A stretch of 36,059 nt of DNA. Origin: Cytophagales bacterium. Lineage in GTDB: Bacteria; Bacteroidota; Bacteroidia; Cytophagales; Spirosomataceae. The stretch lies in the NCBI GenBank assembly GCA_013298805.1, contig JAAFIU010000016.1, forward strand, positions 1-36,059, written 5' to 3'. Below the pieces are notes generated by a model. The model ran no database searches. It saw only the letters and a program-made list of their open reading frames with translations, and was not told where the DNA came from. The translations under genes and the position numbers were made by a program. Below, one piece after another: positions 20,346-34,184 of the stretch. Positions within the stretch are counted from its first letter, which is position 1. Every line of letters starts with the position of its first letter.

Positions 20346-21638
20346 CTAACTATTATTAGAATTTAGAACCTCATCAATCTGCCTAATTATTTCACCCTCT
20401 TCACAACAAATATCAATATCCGCCGCTCTAATCGTTATTACCTTATCACTGGCAAATCTATCGGCAATCGTAAAAATATCCATCTCGCTGTTCTCTTTTC
20501 CATTTTTTTTAGGATAAATCAGCAAGACTTGGTCAATTTCTCGCCTGATTGAATAAGCCAGCATTTGATACATATCGGTTTGAGAAATTCCCTTTTTGCT
20601 GTCTTTCTTATCTCGGATTTTATACTTAGTATCAATCACCAAGGTAGGGTTTTGCAGAATTATATCATTCTTTATTTGAAATACTCTTTCTTGTGTCAGA
20701 AAACCTGTTCCCTGGGCATTGGGCTTTCTATCTATAAAATAGGTTTCAATTATTCCAAAAATAAATTCCTCAAAAACTACCTCCATCGGCAGTAAAAGGC
20801 AGAAATTGTTTTTATTAGCATCTGACTGACTAATACTCGAAGACGACAAAAACATTCGGCTCATTTCTAATACAATAGCCAAATCTTGATAAAGCGGGTT
20901 AAGTTTCACTAAGTCGCAATGGTTTTCTTGGCAATATTCGTCCGCCACATCGTCCAACAAAAACAACAAACTATTTAGTTTTTCTTTGCTTTTTTCGTTA
21001 TTTGTGAACGTTAAAAGCATTCGAGAAACAAACTTTACAATTCGATTAAACTGATTATCGTATAAAAATGGTTCGTAGGTACAATAAAAAAACTGGTGTC
21101 TGCCTGTTAGCAAATTATTTTGCACATACTGTGGAATGGCTAACGAACCTCTCAAATAACTCGTTTCTTCAGTTATTTCTTGGTAAGATTGATACGGTTG
21201 ATTGGTCAATAATTCTTCCGTATGATGTGCAAACAGAAAAATAAAAGCCTCTAACCAAGTATCAAATGGTTGACGGTCGAGCGGTAATTCAGCAAATGGT
21301 AAATTGATTTTCTTCCCGTAACTTAACCAATAAAGCACCTTTGAAATAACTTGCTCTTGGGGCATATCTTGGCAAATCTTAGGATAAATATTAACCGTCA
21401 GCCCTTCAAACTGAATAAAACCGACGTAATTATTAGCTTTTATTTTATCCCCATCAAAAGTCAGGAAACGTTGTTTTTTCTTGTCTGAACCATAGAAAGA
21501 ATCCCGCTCATCTTCCTCTAAACCATACTGTTTTCTACTTTGCCAAACTTCATCGAGATAGGTTTTAAAACGCTTGATTTTATCATCAGAAAATCCCGTA
21601 CTTACCTCTTTATCAAATTCATAAATTGATTGTATCAT
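20346..21638 (-). CDS. mcrC: McrC-like 5-methylcytosine restriction system nuclease subunit
   Basis: VGFIQFEGLTVNIYPKI, PTLVIDTKYK nuclease motif; ATG overlaps the mcrB stop. Confidence 0.9.
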   Translation of the reverse strand: MIQSIYEFDKEVSTGFSDDKIKRFKTYLDEVWQSRKQYGLEEDERDSFYGSDKKKQRFLTFDGDKIKANNYVGFIQFEGLTVNIYPKICQDMPQEQVISKVLYWLSYGKKINLPFAELPLDRQPFDTWLEAFIFLFAHHTEELLTNQPYQSYQEITEETSYLRGSLAIPQYVQNNLLTGRHQFFYCTYEPFLYDNQFNRIVKFVSRMLLTFTNNEKSKEKLNSLLFLLDDVADEYCQENHCDLVKLNPLYQDLAIVLEMSRMFLSSSSISQSDANKNNFCLLLPMEVVFEEFIFGIIETYFIDRKPNAQGTGFLTQERVFQIKNDIILQNPTLVIDTKYKIRDKKDSKKGISQTDMYQMLAYSIRREIDQVLLIYPKKNGKENSEMDIFTIADRFASDKVITIRAADIDICCEEGEIIRQIDEVLNSNNS

Positions 21639-23488
21639 TGAATGAGCAGTTGATAAGCACTTGAAACAATAGTATGAGCAAAACCAGCTTTGGCAATCGC
21701 CTTTTCTACCAAATCAACGACAATCTTATTATCCTTAGCGTTGTAAAAATATTCGCTCAACAATGGAATAACCTTCTTATTCATGGTTTTAACGAAGTCC
21801 AACTCCTCACCATCTTTAGCCATAAAATAAGAATGTCCAATGGTAAAATCTATTCCTTTTTTAGCAATAATTTGTTCATTCAAAGCTTCAAAGAAAGCTT
21901 TATACTTTGAGCTAACTTTCAATGAATCAGGATATAAAGCCGTAAATTCAAACCGTCTTCTCAAGGCAATATCCAATAAAGCAATTGATTTATCGGCGGT
22001 GTTCATTGTACCGATGATATAAAGATTCTTGGGAACGGTAAACTTGGTATGTCCGTCTGGCAACCTTACTTCCATTGCGTGGTCATTACCCCAACGTTTG
22101 TCTTCTTCAATTAAAGTAATTAATTCACCAAATACTCGTGAAATATTAGCTCGGTTGATTTCATCAATGATGATTACGTAGTTTTGAAGAGAGATTTTCT
22201 TTGATGTAATTGTTGAAGGTAGCTTTTGGGAATCTACAAAACTTCTAAACTTCTTGACCATCGTGAAATACCAAGACATATGCTGTTTCGCTAATCCTGA
22301 TATTTCAGGATTGAGCAGAGCTGATTTTCGGTCTTTAGCATTTTCGTCCTTATACAACAAAATAATATCCCTGAATTTCATTTGAATACCTTTTGTATTA
22401 TGACTCCAATTATGCCCAAGATAAACAAAAGCATCATCTCTTACTTCAATAATATTGACTGCATCTGAAATTGAGTATAATCCATTGTCTTCCAAGGCTT
22501 CAGCAACAGAATTCTTGAAACTATCGAATAATTCTTCTAAACCTTTTTCTTGTTCGATAACTTCAATAGGCTTTTGACTATCCTCATAATTTTTCAACGC
22601 TCTTTGGCATATTTTGAAAAATATACCTTCATGTCTATTGAAACTCAAACCATCACCTTCGTTGAGGTCTGGCTTAATACCCATTACAAAATCTTCATAG
22701 CTATAATTTTGGTGGAATGTAATAAAATCAAGCTGACGGTCTTCACTTTTTGCCAACTCGTTTTTGAACCATTGCTTGGCAACGTCATAACCATCTTTTT
22801 CAAAAGCGGCATCACCTTTGATAGCTCTATAAGCTAATTCTATGGTTGAATATGTTTTCCCTGTTCCTGGAGGGCCGTATAAGATTTGGTTGAGAGGTTG
22901 CTCACTTTCTACAATTTCCATCGTTGAATCTGATTGTTCCAAAATTTTATGAAATAATACTCTATGGAGTTCTTTGTAAACATGAAGTGTGGCGTTAATA
23001 TATCGACAAGTTTCATCAATTAACCATCTTTCATCTTTCCCTTTTAATTCATCAATTTCTATAATTCTCCTCTCAACATTGTTGGCTTTCAGTAAATTAT
23101 CAAAGTAGTTTAACCAATATTTTGTCAAGACTTTACTCTTAACTCTATCAAAATCAATTTTAATCAGCAATGCCTTCAACTCGGAATCAACCCCAATTGT
23201 ATAGTAAATCTCTTGATTACCGTGCTGATTTAGGTACAAACGTCCCCAAGAATACTTTTTAAAATTACCGCTAATCTGCCAACGATTATCTGGCTCAAAA
23301 TGAAACAACTTTTGATACCGTTTTTTTACTCCTTCTCCCCACTTGGTAGTTTTATTATAAATACCCTCTATAATACGCTGAGAGTCCCCTAAGTCTTGTA
23401 TTTCGTTATTCCGATAGGCTTGGTTATTCTTAATTCTTTTACTAAAAAACTCGATATCTTCAATTTGAAAAAATGCTTTCAAGCTCAT
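21635..23488 (-). CDS. mcrB: McrB-like AAA+ GTPase/ATPase with unusual N-terminal domain
   Basis: LYGPPGTGKTYSTIELA, IIDEINRANISRVFGELITLIE, GTMNTADKSIALLDIALRRRF. Confidence 0.93.
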   Translation of the reverse strand: MSLKAFFQIEDIEFFSKRIKNNQAYRNNEIQDLGDSQRIIEGIYNKTTKWGEGVKKRYQKLFHFEPDNRWQISGNFKKYSWGRLYLNQHGNQEIYYTIGVDSELKALLIKIDFDRVKSKVLTKYWLNYFDNLLKANNVERRIIEIDELKGKDERWLIDETCRYINATLHVYKELHRVLFHKILEQSDSTMEIVESEQPLNQILYGPPGTGKTYSTIELAYRAIKGDAAFEKDGYDVAKQWFKNELAKSEDRQLDFITFHQNYSYEDFVMGIKPDLNEGDGLSFNRHEGIFFKICQRALKNYEDSQKPIEVIEQEKGLEELFDSFKNSVAEALEDNGLYSISDAVNIIEVRDDAFVYLGHNWSHNTKGIQMKFRDIILLYKDENAKDRKSALLNPEISGLAKQHMSWYFTMVKKFRSFVDSQKLPSTITSKKISLQNYVIIIDEINRANISRVFGELITLIEEDKRWGNDHAMEVRLPDGHTKFTVPKNLYIIGTMNTADKSIALLDIALRRRFEFTALYPDSLKVSSKYKAFFEALNEQIIAKKGIDFTIGHSYFMAKDGEELDFVKTMNKKVIPLLSEYFYNAKDNKIVVDLVEKAIAKAGFAHTIVSSAYQLLIQ

Positions 23489-33800: not shown

Positions 33801-34184
33801 ACTCGATGCACGAACTTCGATTTTACCATCAATTAAATCGTTGATAAATTGAAGCACCCCATTTTCCACTTCGGCAGAATACTTAGCTTCTTTAATATCT
33901 TGAATGAACCATTTAAGAAACTCATTCTTGGTTCTATTCTCATCTCCAAAAAACAGCATACCTTTTCGCTGAGCTTCAGCAAAGAGAGAGTCGACATTTA
34001 TACCTACTAATATTTTAACACTTGGCAGATTCTTTAGATAAGGTTGAAGGGCAAAATAACCAGAAGAGCGAAAATAACCTACAACTGCATGAAAGGCATA
34101 CAAATCCTTCATTTGCTCAAATATACCTTTGAATTTATTAAAAAGATTACGTTCGCTACTATTGGTGAAAAACTTGGTTGACAT
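30858..34184 (-). CDS. Fused PLD-like nuclease and SNF2-type helicase
   Basis: PLD motif HAKFYLLLP...GSSNLT; helicase [69 protein letters not shown]. Confidence 0.94.
   Translation of the reverse strand: [1108 protein letters not shown]

Follow-up and report, generated by a model that had tools for sequence, protein, structure and literature searches.

Seven consecutive defence-like genes on one contig raise the question of whether they encode one multi-subunit system, a stack of two, or a random island. The contig is JAAFIU010000016.1 (assembly GCA_013298805.1, in 461 contigs) from a Cytophagales bacterium of the Spirosomataceae, and it was analyzed in its entirety (36,059 bp; hereafter, the window). 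All seven open reading frames (ORFs) are present on the minus strand. They encode a PLD-SNF2 helicase, a DUF1016 nuclease-like protein, an Eco57I-like methylase and an SMC-like ATPase, here called the first block, followed by a 219-amino acid (aa) protein and McrBC. A sequence-only reading had described this arrangement and its spacings, and the ORF coordinates confirmed both. The helicase and DUF1016 genes are 1 bp apart, the DUF1016 and methylase genes overlap by 4 bp, the methylase and ATPase genes are separated by 4 bp, and mcrB and mcrC overlap by 4 bp; the 219-aa gene lies 84 bp from the ATPase gene and 108 bp from mcrB. The gene families named at that time were recovered in profile searches of Pfam, NCBIfam and PADLOC (PADLOC-DB dated 2023; best 25 families per protein considered), apart from the 219-aa protein, which had no match in any of the three. 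Because the co-directional order recurs in unrelated genomes, it is not due to chance. Gene neighborhoods identified a stack of two as the better option and reduced the first block to two core genes, the helicase and the methylase.

The helicase-methylase core

We searched 391 genomes of the order with three anchors, the ATPase, the helicase and the methylase N-terminal domain, and extended the ATPase search to 396 genomes of the phylum. The helicase-anchored search recovered the PLD-SNF2 helicase in 37 of the 391 order genomes. The methylase N-terminal domain was found in 34 of the 391, all of which belonged to the 37 helicase genomes (hypergeometric p about 7e-46, uncorrected for relatedness). 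Because this domain was found only in helicase-bearing genomes, the core of the first block is two genes, the helicase and the Eco57I-like methylase. Among 34 examined helicase loci from the order search, the methylase lay directly downstream of the helicase in 30, apart from an optional gene between them; it lay upstream in two, and none was seen in two distant loci. The single orphan methylase (L203) occurred in a genome that also bears a full helicase-methylase pair. Co-occurrence and order thus contradict, for the two core genes, a random island without co-conservation, the outcome named beforehand as refuting a composite operon. The first block recurs as a unit among other Bacteroidota, but the neighborhoods reduce the proposed single system of four to seven genes to the two-gene core, and a seven-gene single system was ruled out by the neighborhoods across relatives. 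An obligate helicase-methylase-ATPase triad, suggested by the ATPase-anchored searches, was overturned by the helicase-anchored search. The core, now separated from its cargo, is shared by about 9% of the sampled genomes of the order. It is a recurring, apparently unnamed, restriction-modification (RM)-like system with exchangeable slots, accompanied here by McrBC.

The helicase (30858..34184, minus strand; 1108 aa) matched Pfam PLDc_2, SNF2-rel_dom, ResIII and Helicase_C. Its PLDc_2 nuclease domain (residues 107-195; 33600..33866, minus strand) contains a single HKD motif. In the alignment, the motifs HAK...GSSN, GLGKT, DEAH, SATP and QRIGRVNR were intact and conserved, and the best PADLOC model was C3a139, 'HKD+Snf2' (175.6 bits). 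The methylase (26202..29768, minus strand; 1188 aa) matched Pfam Eco57I and TaqI_C, consistent with a type IIG-like N6-adenine methylase with a TaqI-like specificity domain, and retained the DPAxGSGAFP and NPPY motifs.

The two ends of the methylase had different histories. Across 30 systems, helicase identity tracked that of methylase residues 1-200 (29169..29768, minus strand; rho 0.92) but not that of the TaqI_C target-recognition region (residues 910-1064; 26577..27041, minus strand; rho 0.08). In sliding windows along the methylase, the correlation stayed at 0.84-0.90 up to residue 200, then fell to 0.5 and reached zero in the target-recognition region. In one pair of sister loci (L035 and L038), the helicase was 96%, the methylase N-terminal part 95% and the ATPase 93% identical, with the target-recognition region at 43%; in another (L133 and L134), the values were 92%, 91%, 88% and 47%, respectively. 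The target-recognition end is therefore swapped between otherwise similar loci. Because the edge of the correlation is sharp and persists across an inserted DUF1016 gene, these sequence comparisons favor the helicase and the methylase N-terminal domain as a functional unit.

Several further features were observed around the helicase. In many relatives, the start of the helicase gene is overlapped by a 99-aa Xre-type helix-turn-helix gene (L031:9702-10001; equivalents in L032, L034, L037 and L039), unlike in the window, where none is present. Two small genes upstream of the helicase (window 34703-35762) may mark the edge of a mobile element; one of them (35151-35762) had a weak NikA-like match and a 34% identical relative upstream of the helicase in L047. 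A second, distantly related PLD-SNF2-like helicase of 988 aa lies downstream of the ATPase in L045 (2362-5328). Three loci from one genus (L083, L087 and L088, in genomes G253, G257 and G197) share the same flanking genes, including a 1018-aa gene. One of them has an intact ATPase and another a broken one; in the third, only a fragment of it remains, and the helicase and methylase are gone. This series is a system decaying in place.

Exchangeable slots and downstream cargo

The slot between helicase and methylase is optional and holds a DUF1016 protein, a KilA-N protein, an AlbA_2 protein or nothing. The window gene (29765..30856, minus strand; 363 aa) encodes a DUF1016/YhcG PD-(D/E)XK nuclease-like protein (Pfam DUF1016_N and YhcG_C; PADLOC PDC-S02) that retains the catalytic D...ExK in the alignment. 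DUF1016 also occupied this slot in L033, L034, L036, L037, L039, L044, L045 and L143, KilA-N in L135, L175 and L176, and AlbA_2/Schlafen with HATPase_c_4 in L047, L173, L174 and L177, plus L060 by profile. The window DUF1016 was 62% identical to that of L045 and shared about 35% identity with its counterparts in loci where the helicase is 70% identical to that of the window. Because DUF1016 identities do not follow helicase identities, this gene moves independently. Nothing relevant on DUF1016 or YhcG paired with a helicase was found in the open literature.

The second slot, directly after the methylase, contains an SMC-like ATPase, a serine recombinase together with a methylase 3' fragment in inverted orientation, or neither. 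The window carries the ATPase (24341..26197, minus strand; 618 aa; Pfam SMC_N), which is frequent but optional: its family occurred in 14 of the 396 phylum genomes and 21 of the 391 order genomes, and none was found in phage records. The ATPase has a Walker A motif (GENGSGKSS) and, at Walker B, a D-D pair that is invariant, as in RecF. Its structure model (predicted local distance difference test (pLDDT) score 83) resembles the SMC1A and Rad50 heads (Foldseek E 2e-10) and, more distantly, retron-associated ATPases. An active HEPN nuclease in its C-terminal domain was considered and rejected: N480...H484 is conserved, but there is no R-x4-6-H.

Seven loci (L044, L176, L179, L181, L183, L184 and L061) carry the inverted methylase 3' fragment and serine recombinase beside the helicase-methylase pair, as in L044 (12978-15196 and 15526-16122). 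The recombinase has a Resolvase domain and is annotated as an Mpi-type invertase in Prevotella nigrescens. Inverted repeats were detected in most of the seven, and those shared with the methylase gene reached 284 bp at 100% identity in L044 and 256 bp at 100% in L184. Such fragments with a recombinase are what specificity switching in RM systems would lead one to expect, and the sequences make phase-variable target specificity probable for these cassettes. Comparable phase-variable methylase loci were sought in the open literature, with no relevant result. The window has neither an inverted methylase fragment nor an inverted repeat at the methylase, and so no sign of phase variation there. Of the order's helicase loci whose downstream sequence was long, 12 had the ATPase, six the invertase, seven neither and none both (Fisher p 0.015 uncorrected; tree-aware sign test median p 0.06), which is suggestive of mutual exclusivity. 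On the helicase tree, the ATPase required 14 changes against a shuffled mean of 15.5, a nearly random scatter, and the invertase loci required at least six, also near random. Co-evolution of the target-recognition region with the ATPase was weak (rho 0.08-0.14); a higher value, 0.47, was confined to the final 108 residues of the methylase.

Other occupants of this position were also seen. In L034 (18671-20474) and L036 (9072-10875), another ABC ATPase (AAA_21, HEC-01A-like) is paired with a DUF4276-like protein, preceded in L036 by an additional 133-aa gene. In the P. nigrescens locus L061, two inverted methylase fragments flank an AAA_14/DUF4143 ATPase (18076-19335). The SMC-like ATPase family also replaces a component of an Mza-like locus with MzaB, MzaC and MzaE matches (L142:2729-15115), where it sits after an MzaC-like protein with a weak, added TaqI_C-like tail.

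Behind the ATPase, the 219-aa protein (23597..24256, minus strand) recurred in L042, L080, L138 and L143. Four relatives lie in other loci; in L200, for example, the neighbors, named by reading the translations, are a SIR2-like gene and type I RM-like genes. McrB (21635..23488, minus strand; 617 aa; Pfam AAA_5), the AAA+ GTPase in this type IV restriction system, had an NCBIfam McrB match (129.9 bits) under the equivalog cut-off; McrC (20346..21638, minus strand; 430 aa) matched Pfam McrBC at 206 bits. Both genes are present, and the motifs MNTAD and IDTKYK were seen in their translations. McrBC followed the ATPase on the same strand in three sampled loci, the window, L130 and L138, and the order ATPase, 219-aa protein, McrB, McrC recurred in L138 with a GIY-YIG-like gene, assigned by reading, inserted. 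The 219-aa protein and McrBC are separate, rarer downstream cargo, and McrBC is an ordinary restriction system. Beyond the defence genes, the window contains a 122-bp inverted repeat (79% identical; 756-877 and 15673-15794).

Proposed mechanism and alternatives

The first block is probably a methylation-guided restriction system, resembling a split Type ISP enzyme or the BREX-related Hma systems. The Eco57I-like methylase would mark host sites on N6-adenine through its TaqI-like target-recognition region and would sense the same sites when unmarked. Its residues 1-200, given their co-inheritance with the helicase, may form a docking domain for the PLD-SNF2 protein, which makes them a testable target. 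On unmarked foreign DNA, the helicase would be recruited or released and would translocate on ATP, and its dimeric HKD nuclease would cut during translocation, by analogy with SauUSI and Type ISP enzymes. The weakest steps concern the add-on modules: DUF1016 would most likely be a back-up nuclease, and the SMC-like ATPase most likely an ATP-dependent licensing or sensing factor. McrBC would cover modified-base DNA that the helicase-methylase system could mistake for self. More tentatively, two-gene restriction systems of this kind may form an unnamed class of their own, in which an HKD-SNF2 motor nuclease is recruited by a dedicated N-terminal domain of the methylase. In this class, specificity would be renewed at a single genomic slot in one of two mutually exclusive ways, through the exchange of a target-recognition/SMC-like-ATPase cassette or through a target-recognition switch driven by an invertase. 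A choice at the methylase 3' end between an SMC-like ATPase and a DNA-inversion cassette that would make specificity phase-variable is unusual. If true, this would offer a simple system for asking how an RM-like machine changes specificity without killing its host.

Several points weigh against a methylation-guided system of this kind. The helicase and methylase N-terminus adjoin in the DNA, and linkage could explain part of their co-inheritance. The model of the methylase N-terminal domain had no confident Foldseek match, leaving room for a nuclease fold there. The ATPase role is guessed from its fold, and the restriction, methylation and phage-defence roles are themselves predictions from sequence.

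In a type IIG-like alternative, the methylase itself restricts and the helicase merely aids DNA clearing or repair. Among PADLOC models, that of a type IIG enzyme scored highest against the methylase (525 bits), and the AlphaFold model of its N-terminal domain (pLDDT 81) has a predicted alpha/beta order roughly like a PD-(D/E)XK core. However, ExK is not conserved across the family, reading E-V-N in the window, Y-V-V in L042 and D-V-T in L045, so that cutting would fall to PLD and/or DUF1016. A PDB sequence search matched only the methylase parts, Foldseek gave no nuclease match, and the N-terminal domain is confined to helicase-bearing genomes; we consider this alternative quite improbable. 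It is also unlikely that all four proteins of the first block are obligate subunits of a single complex, which would be a new DISARM/Hma-like system. The tightly spaced four-gene order does recur in L037, L045 and L143. Moreover, among 30 ATPase copies found independently of the helicase and with at least 7 kb upstream, a set that takes in the window and profile members, 28 lay behind a methylase and 25 had a helicase close by, which in 23 cases was upstream and on the same strand. Yet DUF1016 or the ATPase is missing from many helicase-methylase pairs, and the ATPase is scattered over the helicase tree. A chance pile-up of functionally unlinked genes in a defence island would fit the variable downstream cargo and the 219-aa relatives found apart from the core, and for McrBC and the 219-aa protein it is the explanation that fits best. 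As an explanation of the whole locus it is very unlikely, given the co-occurrence of helicase and methylase N-terminal domain and their conserved order.

Relation to known systems

The sequence-only reading held that the first block is neither DISARM nor BREX and that no defence type known to it has exactly this gene set; both exclusions stood, and no described subtype with this set turned up in PADLOC-DB or in the open papers searched. DrmB and DrmC had no match among the best 25 per protein, and the sole DrmA match was to the shared helicase region (55 bits, well below C3a139). With class 1 DISARM, the block shares an SNF2 helicase (DrmD 108 bits) and an adenine methylase (DrmMI 95 bits), both from families that are remotely related to those of DISARM, but it differs in having no DrmA or DrmB match and in the fusion of PLD to the helicase. 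Neither PglZ nor BrxC matched any of the seven proteins, and the NCBIfam BREX MTaseX models reached only 61-91 bits against cut-offs of 400-900. Similarity to MADS, a mad1-mad8 operon, is remote, with a mad2-like methylase (68.7 bits), a mad3-like ATPase (54.5 bits) and none of the other mad models in the 25 top matches of each protein. In three sampled loci (L093, L095 and L096), a related PLD-SNF2 helicase occurs in an operon with DUF4391, Mod and Res, which we take to be Gao_RL; its type III-like Mod/Res and DUF4391 are absent from the window by Pfam. Because defining genes are missing, membership in DISARM, BREX, Hma and this operon is excluded; membership in MADS is unsupported by the sequence matches. 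No matching architecture was found in the PADLOC models or in the open papers searched. The window agrees with McrBC in having both genes, coupled by the 4-bp overlap; a specificity domain was not recognized in McrB.

SauUSI combines a PLD nuclease with a helicase-like motor, dimerizes via its nuclease domains, and translocates and shreds DNA (PMC7913695). The window helicase shares this pairing of nuclease and motor, whereas SauUSI is a Type IV enzyme that itself reads methylated sites and has no methylase partner (PMC7913695). Among DUF499-centred BREX-related (Hma) systems, Type-2 BR has an RM-like operon that encodes an ATPase and an N6-methylase together with an HKD and Swi2/Snf2 helicase (PMC12839542). 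The window has the same components (PLDc_2 and SNF2 by Pfam), but its ATPase is SMC/RecF-like rather than a DUF499 AAA+ protein and its methylase is of the Eco57I/TaqI_C rather than the DUF1156 kind; DUF499, DUF3780 and DUF1156 matched none of the window's defence proteins. Type ISP enzymes (LlaGI and LlaBIII) unite an Mrr-type nuclease, an SF2 translocase, an N6-methylase and a target-recognition domain in one polypeptide. The core would share these four activities and action from unmethylated sites, and differs in its two separate proteins, HKD nuclease and SNF2 motor. By analogy, Type ISP and the Hma systems are, on our best reading, the closest in function.

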